From Streptomyces mirabilis (GTDB taxonomy: Bacteria; Actinomycetota; Actinomycetes; Streptomycetales; Streptomycetaceae), in NCBI RefSeq assembly GCF_039503195.1, contig NZ_JBCJKP010000001.1:6386001-6450000 (forward strand): 64,000 bases of DNA, in the 5' to 3' direction. Position 1 is the first letter of the stretch. Each line of letters begins with the position of its first letter. The position numbers and the translations under genes were made by a program. Below, in pieces: positions 1,535 through 19,096 of the stretch. The notes under the pieces were generated by a model, which saw only the letters and a list, made by a program, of their open reading frames with translations, did no database searches and had not been told where the DNA came from.

Positions 1535-1546
1535 CTACGCGCGTAG
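1535..1546. promoter_or_regulatory. Palindromic operator CTACGCGCGTAG upstream of add
   Basis: A perfect 12-bp palindrome lies 16 bp before the adenosine deaminase ATG and inside the divergent gap to the hydrolase-like gene. The identical sequence occurs 19 bp before deoC (13248-13259) and 19 bp before purine nucleoside phosphorylase (19085-19096). The constant position and shared pathway argue for binding by one repressor, probably overlapping the transcription start or the ribosome-binding region. The regulator is not identified. Confidence 0.75.
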
Positions 1547-1562
1547 GGGCTACAGTGCGAAA

Positions 1563-2717
1563 ATGACGAGCCAGATCCAGAACACCCCGAGCTCGGAACA
1601 GATCCGCCGGGCACCCAAGGTCCTGCTGCACGATCACCTCGACGGGGGCCTGCGCCCCGGGACGATCGTCGAACTCGCCCAGGAGACCGGCTATTCCGGG
1701 CTCCCCGAGACCGACCCCGACAAACTCGGCGTCTGGTTCCGCGAGGCCGCCGACTCCGGGTCCCTGGAGCGGTACCTGGAGACCTTCGCCCACACCTGTG
1801 CCGTCATGCAGACGCGTGAGGCGCTGGTGCGGGTCGCCGCCGAGTGCGCCGAGGATCTCGCCGAGGACGGGGTCGTCTACGCCGAGGTGCGCTACGCGCC
1901 CGAGCAGCACCTGGAGACCGGACTCACCCTCGAAGAGGTCGTCGAGGCCGTCAACGAGGGCTTCCGGGAGGGTGAACGGCGTGCCCGGGACAACGGCCAC
2001 CGCATCCGGGTCGGCGCCCTGCTGACCGCCATGCGGCACGCGGCCCGTGCCCTGGAGATCGCCGAACTGGCCAACCGCTACCGCGACCTGGGTGTGGTGG
2101 GCTTCGACATCGCGGGCGCCGAGGCGGGCTTCCCGCCCACCCGTCACCTCGACGCCTTCGAGTACCTCAAGCGCGAGAACAACCACTTCACCATCCACGC
2201 CGGCGAGGCCTTCGGGCTCCCCTCCATCTGGCAGGCGCTCCAGTGGTGCGGTGCGGACCGGCTCGGCCACGGTGTGCGGATCATCGACGACATCCAGGTC
2301 GCGGCGGACGGCTCGGTGAAGCTCGGACGGCTGGCCTCGTACGTCCGTGACAAGCGCGTCCCGCTGGAACTGTGCCCCAGCTCCAACCTCCAGACCGGCG
2401 CCGCCGACTCCTACGCGGAGCACCCGATCGGTCTGCTGCGGCGCCTGCACTTCCGGGCGACCGTGAACACGGACAATCGGCTCATGTCGGGGACGAGCAT
2501 GTCGCGTGAATTCGAGCACCTGGTCGAGGCGTTCGGTTATTCGCTCGATGATATCCAGTGGTTCTCTGTCAATGCTATGAAGTCAGCATTCATTCCTTTC
2601 GATGAACGACTGGCCATGATCAATGACGTGATCAAGCCTGGATATGCAGAGCTCAAGTCCGAATGGCTGTTCCAGCAGACCGCCTCCACCAGGGGTTCCT
2701 TGAAGGAACAGGGCTGA
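1563..2717 (+). CDS. add: Adenosine deaminase
   Basis: Hydrolytic deamination of adenosine or deoxyadenosine to inosine or deoxyinosine plus ammonia, in the cytoplasm. The 384-residue protein carries the zinc-site HxH at His23/His25 ('HDHLDGG'), His212 with catalytic Glu215 in 'HAGEA', His236 in 'GHGVRI' and Asp304 in 'NTDNR'. Length fits the family (about 340-400). The ATG at 1563 is preferred to the upstream in-frame GTG at 1494 because the palindromic operator at 1535-1546 would otherwise lie inside the gene. The last third differs from the rest: from about codon 323 to 363 many codons end in A or T (GGT, TAT, GAT, AAT, TCA, GCA, ATT), unlike the first 320 codons. No terminator is clear before the next gene. 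Confidence 0.95.
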
Positions 2718-2858
2718 TCGAAGGAGCGAAAAGCGGCCGGGTCTTCACTTGTTCTCCATGACTCGGCTGCTTTCCGATGTTTGCGGAGGGTGGCTCTGCG
2801 TGTTTACGTTTTTGGACCGCTCACATCCCCGTCACACGGATCCAAGGACGCATTCAAT

Positions 2859-3212
2859 ATGAAGCAGTCTGCTGCCAAGACCCTCGGTGTCGCCGCTCTC
2901 GGTGCCGCATTCGCCGCCGTCGGCGCGGGCGCCGCGAACGCCGCCCCGGCCGTGCCGGACGCCTCCCAGGCGCTGGACACCGTTACCCAGACGCTGCCCG
3001 CGCAGAACGCCGCGGCGGCGCTCCCGGGTGCGGGAGAGGCGCTCGCCCACGGGCAGGGCGCGCTCGGCGCGGGGGTGGCCGCGGCCCAGCCCGCCGTCGC
3101 GAAGGTCCTTGCCGACGGTCCGGCGGCGCCGTTGGCCGGTCTGCTCGGGGGGCTGCCGCTGCAGGGCCTGCCGACGCACGGTCTGCCGGTGAACGGGCTG
3201 CCGATCGGCTGA
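2859..3212 (+). CDS. Small secreted Ala/Pro/Gly-rich protein
   Basis: The 117-residue protein starts with a signal peptide: basic 'MKQSAAK', a hydrophobic Ala/Gly/Val stretch, and a likely cleavage site at 'ANAAP' near residues 25-29. The mature part is low-complexity, rich in Ala, Gln and Leu, and ends in repeats of the type 'GLPxxGLPVNGLPIG'. The start is supported by AAGGA about 10 bp upstream. A similar architecture is seen in the protein at 9477-9884, suggesting two members of a Streptomyces family of small exported proteins of unknown function. Longer in-frame starts (for example 2781) would bury the signal peptide. No catalytic motif is visible. Confidence 0.75.
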   Translation: MKQSAAKTLGVAALGAAFAAVGAGAANAAPAVPDASQALDTVTQTLPAQNAAAALPGAGEALAHGQGALGAGVAAAQPAVAKVLADGPAAPLAGLLGGLPLQGLPTHGLPVNGLPIG

Positions 3213-3252
3213 CGCCTTCCGCTTGTTTCGGTCCTTCGCCCGTACGAACGCC

Positions 3253-3285
3253 GGTGGGGCGCACCCTGATGGGGTGCGCCCCACC
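3253..3285. terminator. Perfect 14-bp stem-loop between convergent genes
   Basis: GGTGGGGCGCACCC, a five-base loop and its exact complement lie between the stop codons of the secreted protein (+) and the PspC gene (-). There is no U-tract, as is usual for Streptomyces terminators. It could serve both strands. Confidence 0.75.
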
Positions 3286-3315
3286 GACGTGTCATGCCCT
3301 GAGCCGGGCCGGGGG

Positions 3316-3516
3316 TCACCAGGCCGTGCGGGCCTTGTCCTCGGAGGGGAACAGGATCCACAGCGCTATGTAGAGCAGGAACTGCGGGCCCGGGAGCAGG
3401 CAGGAGAGAACGAAGATCACGCGCATCGTGGTCGCGGAGGTGCCGAAGCGCCGCGCCAGCGCTGCGCACACTCCGCCGATCATGCGGCCGTTGGTGGGGC
3501 GGGCAAGGGCGGTCAT
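3316..3516 (-). CDS. PspC-domain small membrane protein
   Basis: The 66 residues are almost entirely a PspC domain: 'LARPTNGRMIGGVCAALARRF' at the N-terminus, then one membrane helix 'FVLSCLLPGPQFLLYIALWILF' (about 35-56) and a short charged tail. PspC proteins act in phage-shock or membrane-stress responses and in some anti-sigma or kinase modules; here there is no psp operon, so the role is unknown. The ATG at 3516 has AAGGAG six bases upstream on the minus strand, which rejects longer in-frame starts. Downstream it converges on the small secreted gene, with a terminator between. Confidence 0.85.
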   Translation of the reverse strand: MTALARPTNGRMIGGVCAALARRFGTSATTMRVIFVLSCLLPGPQFLLYIALWILFPSEDKARTAW

Positions 3517-3646
3517 GATGGCTCCTTCGTGAACCGTGGCGGGATGCCGGGGTGTTGGGACATCGACGTCGTCTTCGGCGTCTTCTTCGATGTCTCCGGC
3601 TTCGACGTCTTCAACGCTACGGTGACGAAGGGGGCGAAGCGTCGCT

Positions 3647-4165
3647 CTATGGGGCGATGCCGACCCTGGGAATCGTCGGGGTCCGACCCTGAGCCGTGTC
3701 CTCCCGGGGGAGGGCCGCGCGGCGCCGGGTCTCGGCCCGGCGGCGGAACCTGACCCTGGCGGCCGGCACGATCGCGAGATGGGCCAGGGCGACGCCGACC
3801 GTGTTGAGCAGCAGGGAGTCGACATCCACGACCTGGCCGGGAACGCCGGTCTGCAGCAGTTCGATGCCCAGCGAGATCAGGGCGCCGGCGGCGACCGTGC
3901 GGACGAGGGAGCCGAGCGGGGACGCCGTCAGCCTGCCGCCGGCCATGGGGAGCAGGACGCCGAGTGGGGCGAGCAGGCCGAGGCCATGGCCTATCCGGCG
4001 GGCGGCTTCCGCCGGGCCCAGCGCGAGATCGGCTCTGATGCCGGCGAACGGGCGGAGGTTGGCGGGGCTCACCCAGGGGACGTCCAGGGGACGCAGGGTG
4101 ATCCAGGCGACGAGCGCGAGATGTGCGACGAGGAGGAGAGCTCCTGTCGCACGGACGCGGGTCAC
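3647..4165 (-). CDS. VanZ-like membrane protein
   Basis: The 172-residue protein has four or five hydrophobic segments and the VanZ-family pattern: 'ALVAWITLRPLD' near the start, 'RIGHGLGLLAPLGVLLP' at 58-73, 'SLGIELLQTGVPGQVVDVDSLLLNTVG' at 98-123. The last motif, with 'ELLQ...RxxDxxDxLxNxxG' spacing, is diagnostic. VanZ proteins are named from teicoplanin resistance, but most Streptomyces members have no known function. The GTG at 4165 is chosen because the hydrophobic N-terminal segment begins right after it and a GAAGG-type site precedes it. The C-terminal 40 residues are Arg-rich and cytoplasmic. It is 296 bp downstream of the afsQ lipoprotein on the same strand and probably separately transcribed. 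Confidence 0.8.
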   Translation of the reverse strand: MTRVRATGALLLVAHLALVAWITLRPLDVPWVSPANLRPFAGIRADLALGPAEAARRIGHGLGLLAPLGVLLPMAGGRLTASPLGSLVRTVAAGALISLGIELLQTGVPGQVVDVDSLLLNTVGVALAHLAIVPAARVRFRRRAETRRRAALPREDTAQGRTPTIPRVGIAP

Positions 4166-4312
4166 GGCGCTGCCGCCGCCTTCGCCTTGACGTTGCACGC
4201 CTCCCAAGACGCGGGGGTCGGCAGGATCGGTTCCGGGTTGTTGGTGAGCTTGGGGCCGAGGGGTGAGGGATGCGCCACACGTACGGGGCGGAGCGGGGCG
4301 GCTCGGCGCGCG

Positions 4313-4460
4313 CATAGGGGTGTGGCCGTGGGGCGGTGGGGGCCGGGTCGCGCGGTTCCCAGCGCGCCTGAGCCCGGGGCTTCGCCCCGTATCCCTGCCC
4401 GTGCGTAGGCGCTCGTCCGCGGGCCGGTGGGGATGGATCGCGCGGTTCCCCGCGCGCCTG
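4313..4460. repeat. Dispersed GC-rich intergenic repeat, tandem double copy (copy b)
   Basis: Most of the 296-bp gap between VanZ and the afsQ lipoprotein consists of two imperfect copies of a unit containing GTCGCGCGGTTCCCnGCGCG, near 4350 and near 4440. The same unit recurs at 13.4, 18.0 and 40.3 kb. No gene is seen in the gap. Confidence 0.6.
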
Positions 4461-4461
4461 A

Positions 4462-5109
4462 CTACGCGCCGGAGATCGGTGTGGACGGAGGGGACTTGGT
4501 GGTGGGGTTGGCGCGCACGTCGGTGGGGCACTCGTAGCTGCGCAGCGGGGTGGCGTCGGGGCCACCGAGGATGACCGAACCGTCGTCCCGCGCGGCGGCG
4601 GAGTCGGAGAAGGTGCAGATGATCTGGGCGAGGGCGGCGGAGGTCAGGTCCTGAGGAGGGGTGCTGAGGCGGAGCGCGTCCTCGGGGTCCTTGGGCCGAG
4701 GCCCGCTCACCGTCATCCCGCCCCGCACGTCGGTCGTGTAGCCGGCCTGCTGCTCGGGCGTGGAGGGCGTCTCGGCGAGCTCGTCGAGGAGCCCCTGCGC
4801 CACCAGAACCCGCCGCACGCCCTCCGCCGTACCGTCGGGAATCCGCACGGACCGGTCGACCGTCACCAGTTGCCCGGAGCAGATCAGGAAGACCTGCACC
4901 GGGATGCCGCGCGAGGACTGGGTGGTGATGTCCTGGCCGGACAGCGCGCACGGGACCCGGGACGGCGCCGGACCGAAGTCCGTCGGGACCTGGGTGGAGC
5001 GGATACCGCAGCCCGCGAGCAGGACGGCGAGGAGGGGGAGCGAGAGGAGGGAGAGAGAGGCGAGAGGCGTCCGTCGGCGCCCGCCTCGGCCTCGTACCAA
5101 GGTCGTCAT
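4462..5109 (-). CDS. Lipoprotein of the afsQ cluster
   Basis: The 215-residue protein has a lipoprotein signal with lipobox 'VLLAGC' (Cys34). The rest contains a GerMN-like region: 'PVQVFLICSGQLVTVDRSVRI' and 'VRRVLVAQGLLDEL'. The start ATG overlaps the stop of the kinase gene by 4 bp (ATGA), so it is the third gene of the operon response regulator - kinase - lipoprotein. In S. coelicolor the corresponding gene (often called afsQ3) is thought to be a surface partner of the AfsQ kinase. Role inferred: extracytoplasmic sensing or accessory binding protein. Four Cys besides the lipid-anchored one could form disulfides. Confidence 0.8.
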   Translation of the reverse strand: MTTLVRGRGGRRRTPLASLSLLSLPLLAVLLAGCGIRSTQVPTDFGPAPSRVPCALSGQDITTQSSRGIPVQVFLICSGQLVTVDRSVRIPDGTAEGVRRVLVAQGLLDELAETPSTPEQQAGYTTDVRGGMTVSGPRPKDPEDALRLSTPPQDLTSAALAQIICTFSDSAAARDDGSVILGGPDATPLRSYECPTDVRANPTTKSPPSTPISGA

Positions 5110-6683
5110 CCGGCGCTGCCCTCCGTACCGTTCCCGTTCCGTCCGCGCTCGCGCTCGTCGTCGGCGAGCAGCTCCGACGCGTCCTGGGGGAGGCGGAGCG
5201 TGAAGACGGCGCCCCCCTTGGGCGTGTTGGCCGCGGTGATCTCGCCGCCGTGGATGTGCGCGTTCTCCAGGGCGATGGACAGGCCCAGACCGCTGCCCTC
5301 GGAGCGGGGGCGGGAGGCGCTCGCCTTGTAGAAGCGGTCGAAGACGTGCGGGAGGACGTCCTCGGGGATGCCGGGCCCGTGGTCCTGGACCTCGATGAGA
5401 AGGTCGTCGGCCTCCACGCGGACCGAGACACGGACCGGGCTGCCGCCGTGCTTGAGCGCGTTGCCGATGAGGTTCGCGAGGATCACGTCCAGGCGGCGCG
5501 GGTCGAGGCGCGCCATGATGCCGCGCTCGGCGTCCAGGTCGACGGCGTCCAGCCAGGCGCGCGCGTCTATGCACGCGGTGATCTGGTCGGCGATGTCCAC
5601 GTCGTCGAGGACCAGCCGGGCGGTGCCCGCGTCGAAGCGGGTGACCTCCATGAGGTTCTCGACGAGGTCGTTGAGGCGGCGGGTCTCGCTGACGACCAGC
5701 CGGACGGCCGGTTCGATCATCGGGTCGACGCTGCCGGTCTCCGCGTCGAGTTCCTCTTCCAGGATCTCCGTCACGGCGGTGATCGCGGTGAGCGGCGTAC
5801 GGAGTTCGTGGGACATGTCCGCCACGAAGCGGCGGGACGCCTCCTCGCGGGCGCTCATGTCGGCCACGCGCTTCTCCAGGGACTCCGCGGTGTGGTTGAA
5901 CGTACGGGAGAGGTCCGCGAGTTCGTCCGTACCCGAGACGCGCAGCCGGGTGTCGAGCTTGCCCTCGCCCAGACGGCGGGCCGCGATGCCGAGGCGGTGC
6001 ACCGGCTTGAGGACCGTCGTCGCGGCGGCCTGGGCGAGCAGCGCCGAGCCGATCAGGGCCAGGCCGGTCGCGATGCCCAGTGACCAGGCCAGCGAGTTGA
6101 GGTCCTTGGCCTCGGGCTCCAGGGACTTGAGCATGTAGCCGGTCGTCGTCCCGCCGATCACCTTCGCGCCGCCCACCAGGTACGGCTTGTCGTGGTCGGT
6201 GACGCGCTGCCAGTACAGGTGATAGGCCGACTTGTTGTTCGAGGAGAGCGGCTGCTCCTTGTTCACGGCCTTCTGGAGGGACTTGGGTACGTCGTCCAGC
6301 GTGAAGGTGTCCAGCGCGGAGTTGCCGATGACCTTCTTGCCGTTGCCGTCCTGGGCGACGAGGAGCACGCTGAAGCGCTGGCTGCTGTTGGCCATCTGGC
6401 CCGCCGTGCGCTGCAGTTCGTCCTGCGCCGGGTGCACCGGCAGCATGCTCGCGTGGTTGCGCATCTCCTGCTGGAAGTCGCGCAGCACCGCGTCCTGCGT
6501 ACGCGTCAGCACGGCCTCGCGGTTGAGCCAGTACGCGATGCCCGACGCCGACACGGCGGCCGTGAGCGCGACGAGTCCGAACACCACGACCAGCCGCAGT
6601 CTCAGGCTCGTGAAGCGCAACCCCGCCAGGATCGCCCGGCGCGCCGCGGCCCAGCCGCGGAGCTCGTCGTGCGGTGGGGTCAC
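5106..6683 (-). CDS. afsQ2: Sensor histidine kinase AfsQ2
   Basis: The 525-residue membrane kinase has TM1 at about 31-52, an extracytoplasmic sensor of about 145 residues, TM2 at about 199-221, a HAMP linker (222-275), the H-box 'ADMSHELRTPLTAI' with phospho-acceptor His292, an N-box 'NLIGNALKHGG' (404-414), and G-boxes 'DHGPGIP' and 'GSGLGLSIA'. It should autophosphorylate and pass phosphate to AfsQ1. The GTG at 6683 overlaps the AfsQ1 stop by 4 bp and the gene overlaps the lipoprotein start by 4 bp, giving tight translational coupling. AfsQ1/Q2 are known in S. coelicolor to control antibiotic production, nitrogen metabolism and development. The assignment rests on sequence plus the adjoining sigQ. 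Confidence 0.9.
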   Translation of the reverse strand: MTPPHDELRGWAAARRAILAGLRFTSLRLRLVVVFGLVALTAAVSASGIAYWLNREAVLTRTQDAVLRDFQQEMRNHASMLPVHPAQDELQRTAGQMANSSQRFSVLLVAQDGNGKKVIGNSALDTFTLDDVPKSLQKAVNKEQPLSSNNKSAYHLYWQRVTDHDKPYLVGGAKVIGGTTTGYMLKSLEPEAKDLNSLAWSLGIATGLALIGSALLAQAAATTVLKPVHRLGIAARRLGEGKLDTRLRVSGTDELADLSRTFNHTAESLEKRVADMSAREEASRRFVADMSHELRTPLTAITAVTEILEEELDAETGSVDPMIEPAVRLVVSETRRLNDLVENLMEVTRFDAGTARLVLDDVDIADQITACIDARAWLDAVDLDAERGIMARLDPRRLDVILANLIGNALKHGGSPVRVSVRVEADDLLIEVQDHGPGIPEDVLPHVFDRFYKASASRPRSEGSGLGLSIALENAHIHGGEITAANTPKGGAVFTLRLPQDASELLADDERERGRNGNGTEGSAG

Positions 6684-7366
6684 TGAGGAGTGTCCAGTCG
6701 GTAGCCGACTCCGCGGACCGTACGGATCAGGGTGGGCGAGGACGGAACGTCCTCGATCTTCGCGCGCAGCCGCTGGACACACGCGTCCACCAGCCGCGAG
6801 TCGCCCAGGTAGTCGTGCTCCCACACCAGCCGCAGCAACTGCTGGCGGGACAGCGCCTGTCCGGGCCGGCGGCTCAGCTCCAGGAGCAGCCGCAGCTCGG
6901 TGGGTGTCAGCTGCAGATCCTCGCCGTTCTTGGTGACCGTCATGGCCGCACGGTCGATGACGAGGGAACCGAACGTCGCCGAGTCGTTGGCCTCACGCTC
7001 CCCGCGCCGCAGCACGGCCCTGATACGGGCGTCGAGCACCCGCCCCTGCACGGGCTTGACGACATAGTCGTCGGCGCCGGACTCGAGTCCGACCACGACG
7101 TCGATGTCGTCGCTGCGCGCGGTCAGCAGAATGATCGGCAGCTGGTCCGTGCGCCGGATGCGCCGGCACACCTCGAACCCGTCGATGCCGGGCAGCATCA
7201 CGTCCAGCACGATCAGATCCGGCCGCTGCTCACGCAACAGTTTCAGACCGTCCTCGCCGGTGGCAGCGGTGGCCACCCGGTGTCCCTGGCGCGTCAAAGA
7301 GAGCTCCAGGGCCGTCCGGATGGCGTCGTCGTCCTCGATCAGCAACAGGGAAGGCACGAACGTCAT
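6680..7366 (-). CDS. afsQ1: Response regulator AfsQ1 (OmpR/PhoB type)
   Basis: Receiver domain (about 5-118) with acidic pocket 'EDDD' (11-14), phospho-acceptor Asp55 in 'LIVLDVMLPG', Thr/Ala switch 'LLTARS' and Lys104 in 'YVVKP'; then a winged-helix DNA-binding domain (about 130-225) ending 'RTVRGVGYRLD'. With the ATG at 7366 the protein is 228 residues. A GTG three codons later (7357) gives 225 residues and puts the phospho-Asp at position 52, matching how AfsQ1 is usually numbered. Neither start has a strong ribosome site. The gene is divergent from sigQ across a 300-bp gap containing GTGAC repeats that fit the AfsQ1 consensus. Confidence 0.93.
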   Translation of the reverse strand: MTFVPSLLLIEDDDAIRTALELSLTRQGHRVATAATGEDGLKLLREQRPDLIVLDVMLPGIDGFEVCRRIRRTDQLPIILLTARSDDIDVVVGLESGADDYVVKPVQGRVLDARIRAVLRRGEREANDSATFGSLVIDRAAMTVTKNGEDLQLTPTELRLLLELSRRPGQALSRQQLLRLVWEHDYLGDSRLVDACVQRLRAKIEDVPSSPTLIRTVRGVGYRLDTPQ

Positions 7367-9928: not shown

Positions 9929-10837
9929 TCAGTAGGACGAGCCGGAGGCGCCGAGCGCGCCCGTCGGGTGCCAGACCGTCTTCGTCTCCAGGAAGGCCGT
10001 CAGGCGCTCGATGCCGGGCGTCCGTGAATAATCCACAGCCTGTGGACGGACGACCCGCTTCAGGTTGTCGGCCGCGGCGATCTCCAGCTCCTTCGCCAGT
10101 ACGTCGTCCGCGCCCGCGAGGTCGATCGCGTTGACGTCCTGGTGCGCGGCGAGGGGCGCCGCGATCTCCGCCGTCTTTCCGGAGAGGACGTTGACGACAC
10201 CGCCCGGAAGGTCGGAGGTCGCCAGCACCTCGCCCAGCGACAGCGCCGGGAGCGGGGACTTCTCGCTCGCGATCACGATCACCGTGTTGCCGGTCGCGAT
10301 CACCGGGGCGATCACCGAGACCAGGCCCAGGAAGGACGACTCCTGGGGCGCGAGGACGGTGACGACGCCCGTCGGCTCCGGGGTGGACAGGTTGAAGAAG
10401 GGACCCGCGACCGGGTTGCCGCCGCCCACCACCTGGGCGATCTTGTCGGTCCAGCCCGCGTACCAGACCCAGCGGTCGATCGTCGCGTCGACGACCGCGC
10501 CAGCCTTGGACTTCGACAGGCCCTCCGCGTCCGCGACCTCACGGACGAACTGGTCCTTGCGGCCCTCCAGCATCTCGGCGACGCGGTAGAGGATCTGACC
10601 GCGGTTGTACGCCGTCGCGCCGGACCAGCCGCCGAACGCCTTACGGGCGGCGACCACCGCGTCACGGGCGTCCTTGCGGGAGGAGAGCGGCGCGTTGGCC
10701 AGCCACTTGCCCTTGGAGTCGGTCACCTCGTACACCCGGCCGCTCTCGGAACGCGGGAACTTCCCACCCACGTACAGCTTGTAGGTCTTGAAGACGCTCA
10801 GTCGCTGCTGCTCGGTCTTGTCGGTCTTCTCAGACAT
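9929..10837 (-). CDS. Truncated aldehyde dehydrogenase-fold protein without active site
   Basis: The 302-residue protein aligns with the N-terminal NAD-binding half of aldehyde dehydrogenases ('LYVGGKFPRSESGRVYEVTD', 'RGQILYRVAEMLEGRK', 'PEPTGVVTVLAPQESSFLGLVSVIAPVIATGNTVIV') and then jumps to a typical ALDH C-terminal tail ('LTAFLETKTVWHP'). Family length is about 480. The catalytic Asn region reads PQESS instead of PWNFP, the coenzyme-binding Lys is Ala190, and the segment with the catalytic Glu and Cys is absent. It follows the complete ALDH with an 8-bp overlap (start 10837 inside the previous gene). Inferred role: a non-catalytic partner or structural subunit. A degenerate remnant is unlikely because the frame and codon use are intact. 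Confidence 0.8.
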   Translation of the reverse strand: MSEKTDKTEQQRLSVFKTYKLYVGGKFPRSESGRVYEVTDSKGKWLANAPLSSRKDARDAVVAARKAFGGWSGATAYNRGQILYRVAEMLEGRKDQFVREVADAEGLSKSKAGAVVDATIDRWVWYAGWTDKIAQVVGGGNPVAGPFFNLSTPEPTGVVTVLAPQESSFLGLVSVIAPVIATGNTVIVIASEKSPLPALSLGEVLATSDLPGGVVNVLSGKTAEIAAPLAAHQDVNAIDLAGADDVLAKELEIAAADNLKRVVRPQAVDYSRTPGIERLTAFLETKTVWHPTGALGASGSSY

Positions 10838-12272
10838 CGAGGTACGCCTCCAGGCCGTGGCGACCGCCCTCGCGGCCGAAGCCCGACTCCTTGTAACCGC
10901 CGAACGGCGAGGTCGGGTCGAACTTGTTGAACGTGTTGGACCAGATGACGCCCGCGCGCAGCTTGCTCGCGACGGCGAGGATCCGGGAGCCCTTCTCGGT
11001 CCAGATGCCGGCGGAGAGGCCGTACTGGGAGTTGTTGGCCTTGGCGACGGCCTCGTCGGGGGTCCGGAAGGTGAGGACGGACAGGACCGGGCCGAAGATC
11101 TCGTCGCGCGCGATGGTGTGCGCCTGGGTGACGTTCGTGAAGAGCGTCGGGGCGAACCAGTAGCCGGAGGAGGGGAGTGCACAGGCCGGGGACCAGCGCT
11201 CGGCACCCTCGGCCTCGCCCTGTTCGACGAGCGAGGTGATACGGGACAGCTGCTCGGCGGAGTTGATCGCGCCGATGTCCGTGTTCTTGTCCAGGGGGTC
11301 GCCGAGGCGGAGGGTGGACAGGCGGCGCTTGAGCGAGTCCAGCAGCTCGTCGTGGATCGACTCCTGGACGAGGAGACGGGAGCCCGCGCAGCAGACCTGG
11401 CCCTGGTTGAAGAAGATGCCGGTGACGACGCCCTCGACGGCCTGGTCGATGGGGGCGTCGTCGAAGACGATGTTCGCGCCCTTGCCGCCGAGTTCGAGGG
11501 TGACCTTCTTGTCCGTGCCCGCGACCTGGCGGGCGATCGCCTTGCCGACGGCGGTGGAGCCGGTGAAGGCCACCTTGTTCACGTCGGGGTGCTCGACGAG
11601 CGCGGCGCCCGCGTCGCCGTATCCCGGGAGGATGTTGACGACGCCCTTGGGCAGGCCCGCCTGGCGGCAGATGTCCGCGAAGAACAGGGCGGACAGGGGG
11701 GTCGTCTCGGCGGGCTTGAGGACGACCGTGTTGCCGGTCGCCAACGCCGGGGCGATCTTCCACGCCAGCATCAGGAGGGGGAAGTTCCAGGGGATGACCT
11801 GGCCCGCGACGCCCAGCGGGCGGGGGTTCGCGCCGAAGCCGGCGTGGTCGAGCTTGTCGGCCCAGCCCGCGTAGTAGAAGAAGTGCGCGGCGACCAGGGG
11901 GAGGTCGGCGTCGCGGGTCTCCTTGATCGGCTTGCCGTTGTCCAGGGTCTCCAGGACGGCGAGCTCGCGGCTGCGCTCCTGGATGATCCGGGCGATGCGG
12001 AAGAGGTACTTGGCGCGCTCGGAGCCCGGCAGGGCCGACCACTTCTCGAAGGCCCTGCGGGCGGCCTTCACGGCGCGGTCCACGTCCTCCGCGCCCGCCT
12101 GGGCGACCTCGGACAGGACCTCTTCGGTGGAGGGGGAGACGGTCTTGAAGACCTTGCCGTCCGCCGCCTCGGTGAACTCGCCGTCGATGAACAGGCCGTA
12201 GGAGGGCGCGATGTCGACGACGGAGCGGGACTCGGGCGCCGGTGCGTACTCGAATGCGGATGCGGATGCCAT
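10830..12272 (-). CDS. NAD(P)-dependent aldehyde dehydrogenase
   Basis: Oxidises an aldehyde to the acid in the cytoplasm. All catalytic landmarks are present in 480 residues: Asn163 in 'PWNFP', Lys186 in 'VLKPAE', 'FTGSTAVGK' (237-244), general-base Glu260 in 'LELGGKG', and catalytic Cys294 in 'GQVCCAG'. It sits 5 bp after deoC in an operon; because DeoC releases acetaldehyde, acetaldehyde is the likely physiological substrate (inferred). It is followed by an overlapping ALDH paralogue without an active site. The operator before deoC should control all three genes. Confidence 0.92.
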   Translation of the reverse strand: MASASAFEYAPAPESRSVVDIAPSYGLFIDGEFTEAADGKVFKTVSPSTEEVLSEVAQAGAEDVDRAVKAARRAFEKWSALPGSERAKYLFRIARIIQERSRELAVLETLDNGKPIKETRDADLPLVAAHFFYYAGWADKLDHAGFGANPRPLGVAGQVIPWNFPLLMLAWKIAPALATGNTVVLKPAETTPLSALFFADICRQAGLPKGVVNILPGYGDAGAALVEHPDVNKVAFTGSTAVGKAIARQVAGTDKKVTLELGGKGANIVFDDAPIDQAVEGVVTGIFFNQGQVCCAGSRLLVQESIHDELLDSLKRRLSTLRLGDPLDKNTDIGAINSAEQLSRITSLVEQGEAEGAERWSPACALPSSGYWFAPTLFTNVTQAHTIARDEIFGPVLSVLTFRTPDEAVAKANNSQYGLSAGIWTEKGSRILAVASKLRAGVIWSNTFNKFDPTSPFGGYKESGFGREGGRHGLEAYLDV

Positions 12273-12277
12273 GGTGA

Positions 12278-13228
12278 TCAGTCCACCGTCACGTAGTCGG
12301 GGCCGGAGTAGCGGCCGGTGGCCAGTTTCTGACGCTGCATCAGCAGGTCGTTCAGGAGCGAGGAGGCGCCGAAGCGGAACCAGTGGTTGTCCAGCCAGTC
12401 CGCGCCCGCGGTCTCGTTCACCAGGACCAGGAACTTGATGGCGTCCTTGGTGGTGCGGATGCCGCCGGCGGGCTTCACGCCGACCTGGACGCCGGTCTGG
12501 GCGCGGAAGTCGCGGACCGCCTCCAGCATGAGGAGCGTGTTCGCCGGGGTCGCGTTGACGGCGACCTTGCCGGTCGAGGTCTTGATGAAGTCCGCGCCCG
12601 CCAGCATGCCGAGCCAGCTCGCGCGGCGGATGTTGTCGTACGTCGAGAGCTCGCCGGTCTCGAAGATGACCTTCAGGCGGGCACTGGTCCCGCAGGCCTC
12701 CTTCACGGCGGTGATCTCGTCGTACACCTTCATGTACTTGCCCGCGAGGAACGCCCCGCGGTCGATGACCATGTCGATCTCGTCGGCGCCGGCGGCGACC
12801 GCGTCGTGTACGTCGGCGAGCTTCACGTCGAGGGCCGCGCGGCCGGCCGGGAAGGCGGTGGCGACCGAGGCGACCTTCACGCCGGAGCCGGCGACGGCGT
12901 CCTTGGCGGTGGCCACCATGTCGGGGTACACGCAGACGGCCGCGGTGGTGGGCGTCGTACGGTCCGTGGGGTCGGGGTGGACCGCCTTGGCGCCGAGCGC
13001 CCGGACCTTGCCCGGGGTGTCCGCGCCTTCCAGCGTCGTCAGGTCGACCATCGAGATGGCGAGGTCGATGGCGTACGCCTTCGCGGTCGTCTTGATGGAA
13101 CGGGTGCCGAGCGAGGCGGCGCGCGCCTCCAGGCCGACCGTGTCGACGCCGGGGAGCCCGTGGAGGAAGCGGCGCAGCGTGCTGTCCGACGCGGTTACGT
13201 CGCCGAGTGCGGGTGCAGTGGTGGGCAT
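12278..13228 (-). CDS. deoC: Deoxyribose-phosphate aldolase
   Basis: Cleaves 2-deoxyribose 5-phosphate to glyceraldehyde 3-phosphate and acetaldehyde. In the 316-residue protein the Schiff-base Lys216 lies in 'ADFIKTSTGK', the second Lys252 in 'VKPAGGIRT', and Asp152 in 'DEIDMVID'. A C-terminal extension of about 35 residues ('FRFGASSLLNDLL...') is found in the longer DeoC subgroup. The ATG at 13228 is preferred; a GTG two codons upstream is possible. A perfect CTACGCGCGTAG palindrome lies 19 bp upstream. It is the first gene of an operon with two aldehyde dehydrogenase-fold proteins, which fits disposal of acetaldehyde. Confidence 0.95.
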   Translation of the reverse strand: MPTTAPALGDVTASDSTLRRFLHGLPGVDTVGLEARAASLGTRSIKTTAKAYAIDLAISMVDLTTLEGADTPGKVRALGAKAVHPDPTDRTTPTTAAVCVYPDMVATAKDAVAGSGVKVASVATAFPAGRAALDVKLADVHDAVAAGADEIDMVIDRGAFLAGKYMKVYDEITAVKEACGTSARLKVIFETGELSTYDNIRRASWLGMLAGADFIKTSTGKVAVNATPANTLLMLEAVRDFRAQTGVQVGVKPAGGIRTTKDAIKFLVLVNETAGADWLDNHWFRFGASSLLNDLLMQRQKLATGRYSGPDYVTVD

Positions 13229-13247
13229 GGTCACGAGCTGAGCATAT

Positions 13248-13259
13248 CTACGCGCGTAG
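13248..13259. promoter_or_regulatory. Palindromic operator CTACGCGCGTAG upstream of deoC
   Basis: Exact copy of the 12-bp palindrome at 1535-1546 and 19085-19096, placed 19 bp before the deoC ATG. A repressor bound here would control the deoC-ALDH-ALDH operon. Confidence 0.75.
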
Positions 13260-13327
13260 CGGCTGTACACCCCCGGGGGCGGGTGTGGGGCAGTGCACGC
13301 CCGGACATCTCCCGCCGCCCCCAGACT

Positions 13328-13527
13328 CCCCCAAGCTCTCGGCTTCGCTCGAGCAGGGGGACTCCATCATCCCAGGGGGCTCCGCCCCTTCGACTCCGCC
13401 GGGGGTTCGCCTGCACCGGTCAGCCGTCCGCCCCTGGATCCCCGCATCGCCCGAATGGTTCGCCCTCGAACGCCGGGGGGCCGGGCTTTCAGGGGCGCGG
13501 GGAACTGCGCGATCAGCCCTTGTCCAC
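13328..13527. repeat. Composite dispersed intergenic repeat (copy c)
   Basis: This segment fills most of the 394-bp gap between deoC and the PH-domain gene. It contains CTCTCGGCTTCGCTCGA, 'GGGGGACTCCATCATCC', CCTCGAACGCCGGGG and CAGGGGCGCGGGGAACTGCG in that order. The region at 18029-18209 carries the same four blocks in reverse complement order. No coding region is supported in this gap. Confidence 0.7.
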
Positions 13528-13622
13528 CCGTAGACGAACGAATCCCCGCCCGCCCGCGGCGACGCGGCGGCGTGGGCGGGGGTGAAGGAAGTGTTCAGGA
13601 GGCGTCGGGCAGAATCGGAGGC

Positions 13623-14264
13623 ATGACGACCCCGGATGACCAGCCACCCGCGCCGGACGCCCCGCGACCCGAGTCGCAGGACCGGATCTACCGGTCGCAC
13701 GCCGGTATCGCCGGCGGCGTACTGCTGCTCGCCATCACGGGCTGGCTCGGCATCGACGCGCTGGTCACCGGCCACGGCCGCACCCCCTGGCTGGCACTCG
13801 CCGCGCTGATCCTCCTGGTTCCGCTGGTGGCCGCCTTCACCTTGCGCCCCGCCGTCTACGCCAACGAGGACCGGCTGCGCGTGCGTAACCCGTTCCGTGT
13901 CGTCGTGCTGCCCTGGAGCAAGGTCGCCTCCCTGCGCTCCGGGTACTCCAACGAGGTGGTCGACGCCGAGGGCGCCAAGTTCCAGCTCTGGGCGATCCCC
14001 GTCTCGCTGCGCGCCCGCAAGGCCGCGGCCCGACGGCAGGCGCGCAACGCCGCAGCCGACAGCAGCGGCCGTACCTCCTCGGTGGCGAGCGGGCCCACCC
14101 GTTCGCACTCCGACCAGGTCATGGACGACCTGCGCGAACTCGCCGAGGCCCGGGCGGCCTCGGCGGGCGCGCAGGGCGAGGTGAGCGTGCGGTGGGCGTA
14201 CGAGGTCATGGCTCCCGCGCTCGCGGGGGCCGTGGTCCTGGTGATCCTGCTGGCGGTGGGGTGA
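13623..14264 (+). CDS. PH-domain membrane protein
   Basis: The 213-residue protein has two N-terminal membrane helices (about 28-46 and 54-74), then a bacterial PH-like (bPH) domain ('AVYANEDRLRVRNPFRVVVLPWSKVASLRSGYSNEVVDAEGAKFQLWAIP', about 77-125), a charged low-complexity linker (130-190) and a C-terminal membrane helix ('ALAGAVVLVILLAVG'). Such proteins are common in actinobacteria and have no assigned function. The ATG is 9 bp after GGAGG-like sequence. It stands alone between repeat sequence upstream and decayed gene fragments downstream. Confidence 0.82.
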   Translation: MTTPDDQPPAPDAPRPESQDRIYRSHAGIAGGVLLLAITGWLGIDALVTGHGRTPWLALAALILLVPLVAAFTLRPAVYANEDRLRVRNPFRVVVLPWSKVASLRSGYSNEVVDAEGAKFQLWAIPVSLRARKAAARRQARNAAADSSGRTSSVASGPTRSHSDQVMDDLRELAEARAASAGAQGEVSVRWAYEVMAPALAGAVVLVILLAVG

Positions 14265-14289
14265 CGCCAGGACGGCGCGGCGGACCGGT

Positions 14290-14500
14290 GTCCGTCGTCG
14301 CGCAGCGCCGACCCTGACCCATCGCCCCCAACGAGTCGTCGGCCGGGGCGGTGCCGGGGGGCAGGGCGAAGGTCAGGGTGCAGGTGGTCGTGGTGGCGAC
14401 CCGTCGGACCGCAGGTCGCCGTCGAGGCGACGGTGCTGTCCGGGGCGCCGAAGGGGCCGTGGTAGAGCGTGGCGTTGACCTGCTGGAGACCGGACGGGTC
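14290..14500 (-). pseudogene. Decayed fragment of a small secreted protein gene
   Basis: On the minus strand, two stretches with plausible protein-like composition can be read: one with 'LQQVNATLYHGPFGAPDSTV' and one with 'TTTTCTLTFALPPGTAPADD'. They lie in different frames, offset by one base near 14400, and no start codon with a ribosome site is seen. This looks like a frameshifted remnant. The family is not recognised. Confidence 0.35.
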
Positions 14501-14730
14501 GGCCGTACCGGAACTACGGCGAGTGCCGTGCGGCGTTCGAGTGCTTGTGCGCCGACATCGGGAAATTACCCGGCGCGGTGCACCACACCGCGGAAGGCGG
14601 TGGATGGGTCTGGCGGCTGCGTGACGGCAACGGCGGCGCCGTGGCCGTGTCCTCGCGTGCCTACGAGCGGTACTCGACGCGCCGGGCCGCCTACGAACGT
14701 TTCCGGTTCTCCTGGCCGAGCTCGGTCGGG
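14479..14730 (+). pseudogene. Remnant of a DUF1508-like gene
   Basis: An open frame beginning just after a stop at 14476-14478 encodes 'YRNYGECRAAFECLCADIGK', then 'GGGWVWRLRDGNGGAVAVSS' and 'YERYSTRRAAYERFR'. This resembles the one-domain DUF1508 / YegP-like proteins ('W.WRL...NG..VA.S...Y..R..A'). No ATG or GTG precedes the conserved part; only a TTG at 14545 is available, which would remove the first third. Downstream the frame runs into low-complexity sequence to 14844. Probably a pseudogene; a TTG-started short protein is possible. Confidence 0.4.
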
Positions 14731-14890
14731 TGGGGTGGTCCCGTGGGACGAGGCCGAGGGATGGGGCGAGCCGAGTGGGGGGCCCGAGTGATGGGGCGAC
14801 CCCGAGCGAACGGACGGGGCATGCGACAGCCCAACTCCCCGTGAAGCGCGAGACGTTCGAATCCAGGTGTGGTGCCGTACGGACGCCGGC

Positions 14891-16222
14891 TCAGGGCGCG
14901 CTCGGCCACACCAGCGCCATGTACGCGCTCCAGTACGCCGAACTCAGCAGCGCCGCGGTCACGGCGAGGACCCGGAAGCGGGCTGAGGCGCGGGACAGAT
15001 GGAGGGCCAGCGGGAGCAGGAGCGGGAAGCCGGGCAGGAGGAAGCGGGCACGGGGGAAGTAGACGCCGCCGCTGCCCAGCACGATCAGCAGCAGGACACC
15101 GGTGAAGACCAGCAGAGGGAGCGGCTGCCGGTCCCAGGCCCCCAGGGCGTAGAGGACCACGGACACGATCAGCGTGAGCGTCACCATCACCAGGAACAGC
15201 TCCGGCCTGGAGTCGTTCGCGAGGACCTCCCGCACACGGCGCAGGGTCTCCGCGCCGCCGTCCCAGTCGTTGTGCCACAGCCGCTGCACGGCGAAGTACC
15301 CGTCCCATCGGCCCAGGCGCACGCCCACCCAGCCGACGTAGGCGAACCAGCCCGCCGGGGCGAGGGCCGCGGCCGCGAGGACGCGGGGCGAGAAGCGGTG
15401 CCGCAGGGAGAGCAGGGCCGTGACGGTGACCGCGGCCGCCGCCGCGATGCCCGTCGGGCGGGTCAGGCCCGACAACGACGCCAGGGTGCCCGCCCAGAGC
15501 CAGCGGCCGGTGAGCACCGCGTACAGCGACCAGGCGGCGAACGCCGTGAAGAGGGACTCGGTGTAACCCATCCACTGGACCTGGCCGACCGGAAGGGCCG
15601 CCCACAGGAACGTCAGCAGCAGGGCCACGCGCCGGCCGTGGAGATGGTGGCCGACGGCGAAGACCCCCCACGCGGCGAGGAAGGAGGCGACGATCGAGAT
15701 CGCCAGGCCCGTCGTGGCGCGCGTACCCGGGGTCAGGACCGCGGCCGCCTTGACCAGCAACGGGTACAGCGGGAAGAACGCGAGGTTGTTCGCGTCGTAC
15801 CGGGTGCCCAGGTGGTGGGTGTAGCCGTGCTGGGCGATGCCCAGATACCAGTCCGCGTCCCACTGCGTGGCCAGGACGGGCCACACGCCGTGGTGTTGAT
15901 GGTGCGCCCACTGGGTGAGGAACAGCAGACTCACGAGGCGTACGGCCCCGTAGGCGAGCAGGGCGGGGGCCGCCCGGCGCAGCTGGGTGCGGAAGGCGCA
16001 CAGGGTGCCTGTGCGCGCCCACGTGCTGGTGCCCGTACTGGTGTTCGTGTTCGTGGTCGCGGGGAATTCGCCGGGAGCGTTCCGGGGTGGGGAGGATGTC
16101 GGCCGGGAGGCGGTCGAGGACACGCGGCAGCTCCTGGGGCTCGGCGGTGCGCTACCGCCAACCGTTCCTCGGTCGGATGGTGGCGCACCGGAGCGCTGCG
16201 TCAACTGCCGGGCGGAATTCAC
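14891..16222 (-). CDS. Polytopic membrane protein, PIG-V-like mannosyltransferase family
   Basis: The 443-residue protein has a Ser/Thr/Pro-rich N-terminal region of about 75 residues and then roughly ten hydrophobic helices. Motifs recall the GPI mannosyltransferase 2 (PIG-V) family: 'TQWDADWYLGIAQHGY' soon after the first helix, 'LAFFPLYPLLVKAAA', and 'WMGYTESLFTAFAAWSLYAV'. The Asp in 'WDADWY' is the likely catalytic acid of this GT-C-type fold. Bacterial members are presumed to move sugars from lipid-linked donors to outer-face acceptors; the substrate is unknown. The start is uncertain: the ATG at 16222 adds a disordered tail absent from many relatives, but no better start is seen nearer the first helix. 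Confidence 0.75.
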   Translation of the reverse strand: MNSARQLTQRSGAPPSDRGTVGGSAPPSPRSCRVSSTASRPTSSPPRNAPGEFPATTNTNTSTGTSTWARTGTLCAFRTQLRRAAPALLAYGAVRLVSLLFLTQWAHHQHHGVWPVLATQWDADWYLGIAQHGYTHHLGTRYDANNLAFFPLYPLLVKAAAVLTPGTRATTGLAISIVASFLAAWGVFAVGHHLHGRRVALLLTFLWAALPVGQVQWMGYTESLFTAFAAWSLYAVLTGRWLWAGTLASLSGLTRPTGIAAAAAVTVTALLSLRHRFSPRVLAAAALAPAGWFAYVGWVGVRLGRWDGYFAVQRLWHNDWDGGAETLRRVREVLANDSRPELFLVMVTLTLIVSVVLYALGAWDRQPLPLLVFTGVLLLIVLGSGGVYFPRARFLLPGFPLLLPLALHLSRASARFRVLAVTAALLSSAYWSAYMALVWPSAP

Positions 16223-16266
16223 CCGTACGTGGCTGGGTGCTGGACTCGGGCCCTCGCGAAGGCGCC

Positions 16267-16322
16267 GGATCCGAGGCGCCGGATCCGAGACGCGGGATCC
16301 GAGGCGCGGGATCCGAGACGCG
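16267..16322 (+). repeat. Four tandem 14-bp repeats (GGATCCGAGrCGCs)
   Basis: Units starting at 16267, 16281, 16295 and 16309 read GGATCCGAGGCGCC, GGATCCGAGACGCG, GGATCCGAGGCGCG and GGATCCGAGACGCG. A fifth, degenerate unit (GGATCAGATG) runs into the phosphomutase stop codon. The array lies directly 3' of that gene and its copy number is likely to vary between strains. Confidence 0.85.
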
Positions 16323-16325
16323 GGA

Positions 16326-17957
16326 TCAGATGCCGGCCACCGCCGACAGGTCCCGCTTGATCCCCGCGAGCAGCTCGGCGGCCTTCGCGTGGGCCGTGGG
16401 CAGCTCGGCGTGCGAGCCCACCGGGACCACGACCTCCAGGTAGCACTTCAGCTTCGGCTCGGTGCCGCTGGGGCGGACGATGACGCGGGCGCCGGCCAGC
16501 GTGTACCGCAGCCCGTCGGTCGGCGGAAGCGTGTCCGTGCCCTTCGTCAGGTCCTCGGACCTGGTGATGGGCAGGCCCGCCAGCTCCGTCGGGGGCTGCT
16601 CGCGCAGCCGGCCCATCGCGTTCGCGATGACCGACAGGTCCTCCACGCGGACCGCGAGCTGGTCGGTGGCGTGCAGACCGTGTGCCACGGCGATGTCGTC
16701 GAGGAGATCGAGGAGGGTGCGGCCCGCCTCCTTCAGCTCGGAGGCGAGTTCCGTGATGAGCAGGGCCGCGGTGATGCCGTCCTTGTCGCGTACGCCGTCC
16801 GGGTCGACGCAGTACCCGAGCGCCTCCTCGTAGCCGTAGCGCAGGCCCTCCACCCGGGCGATCCACTTGAAGCCGGTGAGCGTCTCCTCGTAGGGGAGGC
16901 CCGCCTTCTCGGCGATCCGGCCGAGGAGGGAGGAGGAGACGATCGACTCCGCGAAGGTGCCGCGCGCGCCGCGGTTCACCAGGTGCTGGGCGAGCAGCGC
17001 GCCGACCTCGTCGCCGCGCAGCATGCGCCAGTCGGCACCGTCCCTGACGGCCACCGCGCAACGGTCCGCGTCCGGGTCGTTGGCGATGATCAGGTCGGGT
17101 CCGGTCTCGCGGGCCTTCGCGAAGGCCAGGTCCATCGCGCCGGGCTCTTCCGGGTTGGGGAAGGCGACGGTGGGAAAGTCGGGGTCCGGTTCCGCCTGCT
17201 CGGCGACGAGCACGGGCTCCGGGAAGCCGGCCCGGGCGAAGGCGGCGAGCAGGACGTCCTTGCCGACACCGTGCATCGCCGTGTAGACGGTGCGGGCGGT
17301 GCGGGGGGAGCCCTGGGCGAGGACGGCGTCCGTACGGGCCAGGTAGGCGTTCAGGACGCCCTCGTCGAGGGTCTCCCAGCCGGAGTCCGGGCGGGGGACG
17401 TCGGCGAGGCTGCCGACGGCGGCGATCTCGGCGGCGATCTCGGCGTCCGCAGGGGGGACGATCTGCGAACCGTCGCCCAGGTAGACCTTGTAGCCGTTGT
17501 CGCGGGGCGGGTTGTGGCTGGCGGTGACCTCCACGCCGGCCACGGCGCCGAGATGCCGTATGGCGTACGCCAGGACGGGCGTCGGCAGGGGGCGGGGGAG
17601 GACGGCGGCGCGCAGGCCCGCGCCCGTCATCACCGCGGCGGTGTCGCGGGCGAAGTCGGCGGACTTGTGGCGGGCGTCGTAGCCGATGACGACGAGGCCG
17701 TCCGTCTCGCCCTGCTTCCTGAGGTACGCGGCCAGGCCGGCGGCGGCACGGATGACCACCGCGCGGTTCATGCGCATCGGGCCCGCGCCGAGTTCGCCCC
17801 GGAGGCCGGCGGTGCCGAACTGGAGGGTGCCACTGAAGCGTGCGGTGAGCTCGGGGACGTCCTTGGCGGCGATGAGCTCGGCGAGTTCCTCGCGGGTTTC
17901 CGGGTCGGGGTCCTCGGCGAGCCACGCCTCGGCCCGTGCGATGAGTTCGTCCTGCAC
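16326..17957 (-). CDS. Alpha-D-phosphohexomutase family protein, PGM2-like (probable phosphopentomutase)
   Basis: The 543-residue cytoplasmic enzyme has the four-domain phosphohexomutase layout: 'FGTAGLRGELGAGPMRMN' (47-64), phosphoserine loop 'TASHNPPRDNGYKVY' with Ser147, metal loop 'DPDADR' (Asp294/296/298), a sugar-binding loop 'GFKW' and a C-terminal phosphate loop 'RPSGTEPKLK'. Usually annotated phosphomannomutase, but the N-terminal signature and length are closest to the PGM2 branch, whose studied members interconvert ribose 1-phosphate and ribose 5-phosphate. No deoB-type mutase occurs in the window, and the gene lies 277 bp downstream of purine nucleoside phosphorylase on the same strand. 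A phosphopentomutase role is therefore inferred. ATG at 17957. Confidence 0.85.
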   Translation of the reverse strand: MQDELIARAEAWLAEDPDPETREELAELIAAKDVPELTARFSGTLQFGTAGLRGELGAGPMRMNRAVVIRAAAGLAAYLRKQGETDGLVVIGYDARHKSADFARDTAAVMTGAGLRAAVLPRPLPTPVLAYAIRHLGAVAGVEVTASHNPPRDNGYKVYLGDGSQIVPPADAEIAAEIAAVGSLADVPRPDSGWETLDEGVLNAYLARTDAVLAQGSPRTARTVYTAMHGVGKDVLLAAFARAGFPEPVLVAEQAEPDPDFPTVAFPNPEEPGAMDLAFAKARETGPDLIIANDPDADRCAVAVRDGADWRMLRGDEVGALLAQHLVNRGARGTFAESIVSSSLLGRIAEKAGLPYEETLTGFKWIARVEGLRYGYEEALGYCVDPDGVRDKDGITAALLITELASELKEAGRTLLDLLDDIAVAHGLHATDQLAVRVEDLSVIANAMGRLREQPPTELAGLPITRSEDLTKGTDTLPPTDGLRYTLAGARVIVRPSGTEPKLKCYLEVVVPVGSHAELPTAHAKAAELLAGIKRDLSAVAGI

Positions 17958-18028
17958 GTCGGGTGAACCTCTCTGTTTGTGCTGCCCTTGCTTGTGTACC
18001 CGGCCAGGGGGTGGGTGTGTCGGCTGCG

Positions 18029-18209
18029 GGCCGGTGGGGCCGGTCGCGCAGTTCCCCGCGCCCCTGAAGGGGTGCTGCGCGCACCCTCCAGCCCGTCCGG
18101 CGTTCGAGGACGAGGCCCTTCACGCCGATGGGGGTCTGGGCCGGAGCCCCCAGTTTGAGGATGATGGGGGTGCCCCCTGGTCGAGCGAAGCCGAGAGCGC
18201 GGGGGAGGG
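18029..18209. repeat. Composite dispersed intergenic repeat, inverted relative to copy c (copy d)
   Basis: In the 277-bp gap between purine nucleoside phosphorylase and the phosphomutase lie GTCGCGCAGTTCCCCGCGCC, CCGGCGTTCGAGGACG, a 'GGATGATGGGGGTG' block and TCGAGCGAAGCCGAGAG. These are the complements, in reverse order, of the blocks in 13328-13527. Together the two copies bracket a 4.5-kb segment. Confidence 0.7.
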
Positions 18210-18234
18210 CAGGGGCGGCGGGGGCGATCGAGCC

Positions 18235-19065
18235 CTACAGGCGGTCCAGGACCTGGGTGAGCAGGGAGCCCATGCGGGTCGCGGAGTCGCGGCCCGCCTG
18301 GAGGACCTCCTCGTGGTTGAGAGGCTCGCCCGTCATACCGGCGGCGAGGTTGGTGACGAGGGAGATGCCGAGGACCTCCGCACCGGCCTCACGCGCCGCG
18401 ATCGCCTCGAGAACCGTCGACATGCCGACGAGGTCCGCGCCGAGGACACGAGCCATCCGGATCTCGGCCGGCGTCTCGTAGTGCGGCCCGGTGAACTGCG
18501 CGTAGACGCCCTCCTCCAGGGTGGGGTCGACCTCCTTGCAGAGGGCGCGCAGCCGCGGCGAGTACAGGTCGGTCAGGTCGACGAAGTTCGCCCCGACGAT
18601 CGGGGACGTCGCCGTCAGGTTGATGTGGTCGCTGATCAGCACCGGCTGGCCGGGGCGCATGTCCGCGCGCAGGCCACCGCAGCCGTTCGTGAGCACGATG
18701 GTCTTGCAGCCCGCGGCGACGGCGGTACGCACGCCGTGCGCGACGGCGGCGACCCCGCGGCCCTCGTAGTAGTGGGTGCGGCCGAGGAAGACCAGGGCCC
18801 GCTTGTCACCGACCTTGTACGAGCGGATCTTGCCGCCGTGCCCCTCGACCGCCGGCGGGGGGAACCCGGGCAGCTCGGTGACCTGGAACTCGGCCTCGGG
18901 GGTGCCGAGGGCGTCCACGGCCGGAGCCCAGCCGGAGCCCATCACGAGCGCGACGTCGTGGGTCTCGGCGCCCGTGAGCTCCCGCAGGCGGGTGGCGGCG
19001 GCGTCGGCGGCGGCGTGGGGGTCGCCCTGGATGTCGTCCGGAAGAAGAGATGCGTTCACGCGCAT
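18235..19065 (-). CDS. Purine nucleoside phosphorylase (trimeric type)
   Basis: Phosphorolysis of purine (deoxy)nucleosides to base plus (deoxy)ribose 1-phosphate. The 276-residue protein has the low-molecular-weight PNP signatures 'MGSGWAP' (42-48), 'GRTHYYEG' (95-102), 'NGCGGLR', '[10 protein letters not shown]' with Glu197, and 'SLVTNLAAG' with Asn239, the residue associated with 6-oxopurine preference (inosine, guanosine). That fits adenosine deaminase acting first. ATG at 19065 is preceded 19 bp upstream by the CTACGCGCGTAG palindrome; a GTG two codons in is an alternative. The phosphomutase follows on the same strand. Confidence 0.93.
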
Positions 19066-19084
19066 GAGGGTAGCTGGTCCAGGC

Positions 19085-19096
19085 CTACGCGCGTAG
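19085..19096. promoter_or_regulatory. Palindromic operator CTACGCGCGTAG upstream of purine nucleoside phosphorylase
   Basis: Third exact copy of the 12-bp palindrome, 19 bp before the start codon, the same spacing as at deoC. The rest of the 157-bp gap to the next gene shows no other feature. Confidence 0.75.

Follow-up and report, generated by a model that had tools for sequence, protein, structure and literature searches.

A conserved 12-bp palindrome as a likely shared operator of nucleoside and purine genes in Streptomycetaceae

In Escherichia coli, PurR belongs to the LacI family and has a palindromic operator with a central C|G; this single operator is placed over the de novo purine genes and base transport. 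The genes deoC, deoA and cdd and nucleoside import are under the shared repressors DeoR and CytR, which use operators of their own and leave purine synthesis outside. In Bacillus subtilis, a PurR of phosphoribosyltransferase fold acts through yet another sequence, the PurBox. It likewise links the pur genes with nucleoside and base uptake (see also PMC8789054). Orthologues of the E. coli PurR are reported in only three gamma-proteobacterial orders (PMC4052901). Streptomyces has a purine-salvage repressor, XdhR, which controls xanthine dehydrogenase and actinorhodin regulators; the accessible part of its description names no target of the element treated here (PMC6627660). This element is a 12-bp perfect dyad, CTACGCGCGTAG (the box), found in a 64-kb stretch of Streptomyces mirabilis (the window: contig NZ_JBCJKP010000001.1, positions 6,386,001 to 6,450,000) from a genome of 11.14 Mb in two contigs. 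Judging from sequence comparison, we consider it likely that the box is the operator of a dimeric repressor in Streptomycetaceae, joining purine synthesis with the scavenging, import and breakdown of nucleotides. Its sequence is unlike that of the E. coli PurR operator, and in Streptomycetaceae nucleoside catabolism genes share the operator as well.

Three exact copies lie in the window: at 1535-1546 (plus strand), upstream of the adenosine deaminase gene add, and, both on the minus strand in gene orientation of the palindrome, at 13248-13259 upstream of deoC and at 19085-19096 upstream of the purine-nucleoside phosphorylase gene pnp. A preliminary description of the stretch had placed them 16, 19 and 19 bp from the start codons, and our scan reproduces these distances, the ATG codons lying at 1563, 13228 and 19065. 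The ATG of pnp is missing in many other genera, and a GTG at 19059, 6 bp further in and 25 bp from the box, is common to them. The same description noticed no other copy, and in our scan no further place in the window matches with zero or one mismatch; three match with two. Composition and Markov models predict 0.002-0.007 copies per 64 kb. No other palindromic 12-mer occurs three times there, although 79 12-mers of any kind attain that number in the window.

The whole genome holds four exact copies, against one for the reversed control and an expectation of roughly 0.4-1.2 extrapolated from window composition. All four fall inside 30.3 kb (for four random places the probability is about 8e-8), so they are not scattered; random scatter was what the preliminary description had named as refuting its proposal. 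The fourth copy is found outside the window, 11 kb to its left, where it separates a BMP lipoprotein gene from an ABC ATPase gene; all four adjoin nucleoside genes, this BMP-type ABC transporter included. Two BMP genes near the fourth copy carry a related form, CTACGCGCGTTA. At up to two mismatches the genome has 340 places compared to 772 for the reversed control; in the absence of enrichment, loose matches alone carry no weight. As a side observation, the ABC ATPase gene that follows the fourth copy (L065:4784-4860) lacks an ATG, GTG or TTG where its AAGGAG would place the start codon, and an ATC start is possible.

Every one of the 61 sampled Streptomyces genomes has the exact box, in two to six copies each, as does nearly every sampled genome of the family (40 of 41 Streptomycetaceae, 16 of 17 genera). 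In a sample of the class, 23 of 197 genomes hold it; 16 of these belong to the genus, leaving 7 of 181 outside. Eight sites read in six of the seven adjoin no nucleoside gene, and at the site in the seventh (G233) the gene finder called no gene; these seven occurrences are apparently due to chance.

Orthologous promoters were compared in genome G000 and 20 other family genomes (14 genera), the genes being located by blast in stretches taken around the DeoR gene discussed below. Conservation there, which the preliminary description had called for, is close to complete: the box is kept with at most one mismatch in 19/20 add, 21/21 deoC and 20/21 pnp promoters. In detail, 18 add promoters carry it exactly and one with a single mismatch (G263), the add gene of G257 not being found within the span searched; for deoC the counts are 8 exact and 13 with one mismatch, and for pnp 15 exact, 5 with one mismatch and 1 with two. 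The bmp1 gene was found in 15 stretches (in six it was not found in the span), once with one mismatch and 14 times with two. As a control, 400 palindromes of like make-up gave no exact match; at up to one mismatch they matched on average 0.01-0.02 rows, with a maximum of 3. At two mismatches the mean was 0.21-0.37 rows and some controls reached 18, so for bmp the case lies mainly in the recurrence of a single form, CTACGCGCGTTA. With rows aligned on the box, which favours it, the mean frequency of the top base inside the box is 1.00 for add, 0.95 for deoC, 0.97 for pnp and 0.97 for bmp, and in the flanks it is 0.45-0.48 (45 bp upstream) and 0.50-0.87 (20 bp downstream).

The preliminary description took the box as a mark of nucleoside catabolism. 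This proved too narrow: purSQL, nucleotidase-type genes and a permease also carry it. We scanned eight genomes with the degenerate pattern CTACGCGHRTWN, and 56 of the 127 distinct places found lie at purine or nucleoside genes (9/20 in G000, 8/23 in G266, 8/12 in G259, 8/21 in G284, 8/20 in G013, 5/11 in G282, 4/9 in G257 and 6/11 in G265). A box form precedes purSQL in six of the eight, and G191 additionally has the exact box there; a secreted 5'-nucleotidase gene and a CpdB-like secreted phosphoesterase gene have one in four genomes each, an NCS1 permease gene in two. The genes purK, purB and deoA and a lamin-tail secreted protein gene are single cases of this pattern; for deoA, forms with one or two mismatches occur in G256, G282, G287 and G279. 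Thirteen of 20 exact family sites examined singly lie at add, a second add, pnp, deoC, an ABC transporter or purS. The second, unlinked add gene carries an exact copy spanning codons 3-7 in five genomes, which were selected because they had the box, and one such gene was confirmed by NCBIfam. Among the de novo purine genes a shared box is seen at purSQL, purK and purB, and among deo and nucleoside uptake genes at deoC, pnp, add, bmp, the ABC genes and deoA.

One member of each target family was checked by Pfam (deoA by NCBIfam, on the G000 protein), the others being named by eye. In the CpdB-like member the match to the metallophosphatase domain is above the cut-off, and that to the 5'-nucleotidase C-terminal domain narrowly misses it. 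Recurrent matches also occur inside conserved coding sequence, so recurrence by itself is no proof; the targets listed have the box in front of the gene.

Several observations weigh against a shared operator of this scope. The degenerate pattern is little enriched (127 distinct places vs 99 reversed-control hits in the eight genomes), and 71 of the 127 are not at purine or nucleoside genes. Its scan gave no match at purSQL in G282 and G257 and none at the 5'-nucleotidase in four of the eight genomes, where gene or box may differ, and at purK and at purB the box was found in one genome each only. The add promoter of G268 is without a box. Seven of the 20 exact family sites have other or unclear neighbours: three belong to a single secreted family, one is unclear, and the rest lie at genes for a peptidase, a HAD hydrolase and a Tat-type secreted protein. 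Finally, a box-like site in the rpoB leader of all eight genomes stands outside what the model explains.

Some of these sites deserve a description of their own. The rpoB leader carries GTACGCGCGTAG (with one more mismatch in G284) next to the conserved flank TGAGTCCGAGCCCTC in 8/8 genomes, near position 1500 of L175, L184, L240, L242, L247, L249, L286 and L292; it may serve another function, its flank being conserved too. The secreted family, to which no function is assigned and which is often labelled hydrolase, has the exact upstream box in three genomes of two genera (L069:5052-6803, L071:3244-4962 and L076:5038-5967), and it is possible that it represents a new nucleic-acid scavenging enzyme. 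GH25 lysozyme-type genes have box variants in three genomes (L162:1500, L276:1500, L291:1500), possibly as a link between lysis and nucleoside scavenging, possibly by chance.

Which protein would read the box? Operators of the LacI family have a central C|G, and so does the box. A tentative candidate, possible but on balance doubtful, is the product of a LacI-family gene that follows glnR (G000:C1:5062325-5063344). This protein would be PurR/CytR-like and would control its own gene weakly, by way of a half box covering the -10. It is present in 41/41 family genomes, its orthologues sharing 66-100% identity and the next among the matches listed at most 42%, and its helix DDVARLAGTSTAVVSYV is invariant in 42 rows from 40 genomes (G257 not included). 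Its gene lies near the 5'-nucleotidase target, at about 11 kb in G000 and about 4, 6 and 9 kb in G265, G284 and G013, a linkage that is nevertheless loose. The half box GCGTAGA covers the -10 of the gene in 32/42 rows; it is absent, however, in the other 10 (g91, g94, g99, G268, G288), genera where the operator persists, and the -10 would by itself already impose its TAG. Similarly, the start region of the gene has a best box match of 10/12 in 77 of 80 close Streptomyces, but other genera do not keep this match. On the favourable side, a second LacI gene of this genome is preceded, at about 60 bp, by the palindrome TAACGCGCGTTA.

Scores against family models do not tell the ligand of the glnR-linked protein: it reaches 179 bits with the NCBIfam PurR model, far under the cut-off of 501, and does similarly with RbsR and GalS. 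By position after glnR, the neighbour being identified by eye, it is SCO4158-like. SCO4158 is named as downstream of glnR and has been proposed as a possible glnR regulator (PMC9739823), a role that speaks against the assignment to the box. Separately, we note that TAACGCGCGTTA (L348:1404-1415), upstream of the other LacI gene, stands beside an aldo/keto reductase-like gene.

The preliminary description named another candidate reader, the DeoR-family protein at 21420 (21420-22382, plus strand; PF00455/PF08220). Its gene is linked to the targets, and it would sense a phosphopentose. It occurs in 41/41 family genomes, and pnp is in all 21 stretches, themselves taken around DeoR. In its DNA-binding part, residues 1-44 and 46-60 are invariant in 21/21 sequences while the remainder drifts, and its sole PDB sequence match at E 0.001 is the sensor domain of a deoxyribose operon repressor; it is not an equivalog of E. 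coli DeoR, scoring 74 bits where the cut-off is 244. The 9-of-12 variant of the box noted upstream of the gene does exist at 21320-21331 (GTAGGCGCGTAT), but it reflects no conserved site: none of 30 family DeoR-gene promoters has a box within two mismatches, the best match having three mismatches in 4, four in 10 and five in 16 of them. Moreover, homologues with the identical helix SEVTVRRD, which may be paralogues, are found in two other families (f17, f28). Of six such stretches, three have sugar ABC genes next to the homologue, together with TGATCG-type repeats, and in none is there a box close to it; five of the six genomes are without an exact box, and the sixth (G168) has one inside an open reading frame. 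The missing promoter box and the other motifs beside same-helix homologues weaken the candidate, and we regard this protein as an unlikely reader.

Two further features of these DeoR genes were observed. Two of the three homologues adjoining ABC genes (among L298-L305) have in common a palindrome resembling TGATCGGANCCGATCA, located at the -10. In the window, the leader of the DeoR gene (21350-21440) has strongly conserved blocks of its own, GAACAACTTCTGTTA and GTTACTGTCAGTTTCGTGTTCGC, and no box.

Read by eye and with a simple gene finder, which can overlook genes, the cluster contains two conserved DNA-binding regulators, a LysR protein (12/20) and DeoR (by construction), as well as a gene for a two-component-type sensor kinase. 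Odd-centred operators are expected of LysR proteins. We set aside the LysR gene, which lies beside add, given its presence in 12/20 clusters and its variable DNA-binding part. A search for an autoregulated regulator gene with CTACGCGHRTWN in the eight genomes, which weaker or other box forms would escape, returned only a MarR gene recurrently (2/8). In G266 and G259 a box variant accompanies this gene, whose neighbour encodes a GH25 lysozyme. It was rejected as the regulator: the genera g91, g92 and g94 keep the box and have distant homologues only.

The placement of the box in its promoters bears on how it would act (all -10 elements are predicted, by eye). At add (1563-2717, plus strand; PF00962, above the cut-off of the equivalog model NF006847) the predicted -10 TACAGT at 1551-1556 (plus) lies between box and ATG, 4 bp from the former and 6 bp from the latter, a spacing that possibly indicates a leaderless transcript. 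The layout of box, 4 bp, TA...T, about 6 bp and start codon recurs in the family, TA...T being kept in at least 90% of 19 promoters. At deoC (12278-13228, minus; PF01791, TIGR00126), the predicted TATGCT (13241-13246, minus) follows the box after 1 bp, and TAGATATGCT is found in 20/21 rows. An aldehyde dehydrogenase gene (10830-12272, minus; PF00171) starts 6 bp after deoC and is, from this spacing, probably in one operon with it. At the 5'-nucleotidase the box is followed after 4 bp by TAAAGT, TAAGCT, TAGGCT or TATGCT.

The box is more distant at pnp (18235-19065, minus; PF01048, above the TIGR01698 cut-off), where the predicted TACCCT at 19067-19072 (minus) begins 12 bp past it. In most pnp rows and at purS, about 12-14 bp separate the box from a TACCCT-like element or TAGTCT/TACGCT; for pnp, g91 and g94 do not keep the element at this spacing. 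Downstream of pnp lies a phosphohexomutase-type gene (16326-17957, minus) with phosphoglucosamine/phosphomannomutase models all below their cut-offs, a possible phosphopentomutase partner of pnp.

In these promoters a perfect 12-bp dyad thus overlaps the predicted core promoter, beside the -10 or near the -35. Its frequent nearness to the predicted -10 could also be that of an activator site or a fixed sigma-factor promoter element. The spacing varies, however (1, 4 or about 12-14 bp), inside the expected RNA polymerase footprint, which suggests repression and argues against a sigma element; together with the dyad, it makes this alternative very improbable. A transcribed RNA element is most likely not involved, because the box lies upstream of the predicted -10s. 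Chance placement of a GC-rich palindrome near related genes, with which sporadic copies outside the family and the lack of enrichment at two mismatches would agree, has next to no probability, being refuted by the composition and clustering figures, the 400 control palindromes and the exact copies in almost all sampled genera of the family.

The varied spacing within the polymerase footprint suggests a repressor site, and we return to the box as the operator of a repressor. The dedicated repressor of the preliminary description stands as far as a conserved, dedicated operator with non-random exact copies is concerned; repression itself, the dimer and the signal we infer from placement and symmetry. 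Bound over the core promoter (next to the -10 at add, at deoC and at the 5'-nucleotidase gene, close to the -35 at pnp and purS), the repressor would block RNA polymerase until there is a change in a purine, nucleoside or phosphopentose signal. The regulon would have four arms. The 5'-nucleotidase and the CpdB-like phosphoesterase would scavenge outside nucleotides, the BMP-ABC and the NCS1 permease would serve import, and add, pnp, deoC and deoA would serve breakdown; purSQL, with purK and purB in single genomes, would bring in de novo purine synthesis.

Some targets are under other controls too: PhoP controls the extracellular 5'-nucleotidase SCO4152 (PMC7866108), and the DeoC protein (SCO4914) is lowered in an argR mutant (PMC3293853). 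We found no description of the box or its regulon in the literature searched, mostly without subscription journals, and its novelty is provisional. Text matches to the 12-mer were a DNA-structure review and a GapR paper, and the inner 10-mer with the word Streptomyces gave a TelN paper.

Within the accessible literature, the transcriptional control of purine synthesis and nucleoside recycling in Streptomyces looks open; now that an operator and a set of its targets are defined, the repressor becomes findable. If the proposal is true, nucleotide digestion, nucleoside import and breakdown, and purine synthesis form a single regulon with one almost invariant operator. More speculatively, and with less than even confidence, one Streptomycetaceae repressor, possibly the glnR-adjacent LacI protein, might combine the tasks for which enteric bacteria use PurR, CytR and DeoR separately, and might touch RNA polymerase supply through the rpoB leader. 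Purine and GTP levels feed the nucleotide messengers (p)ppGpp and cyclic di-GMP, and hence development and antibiotic output (PMC6627660).

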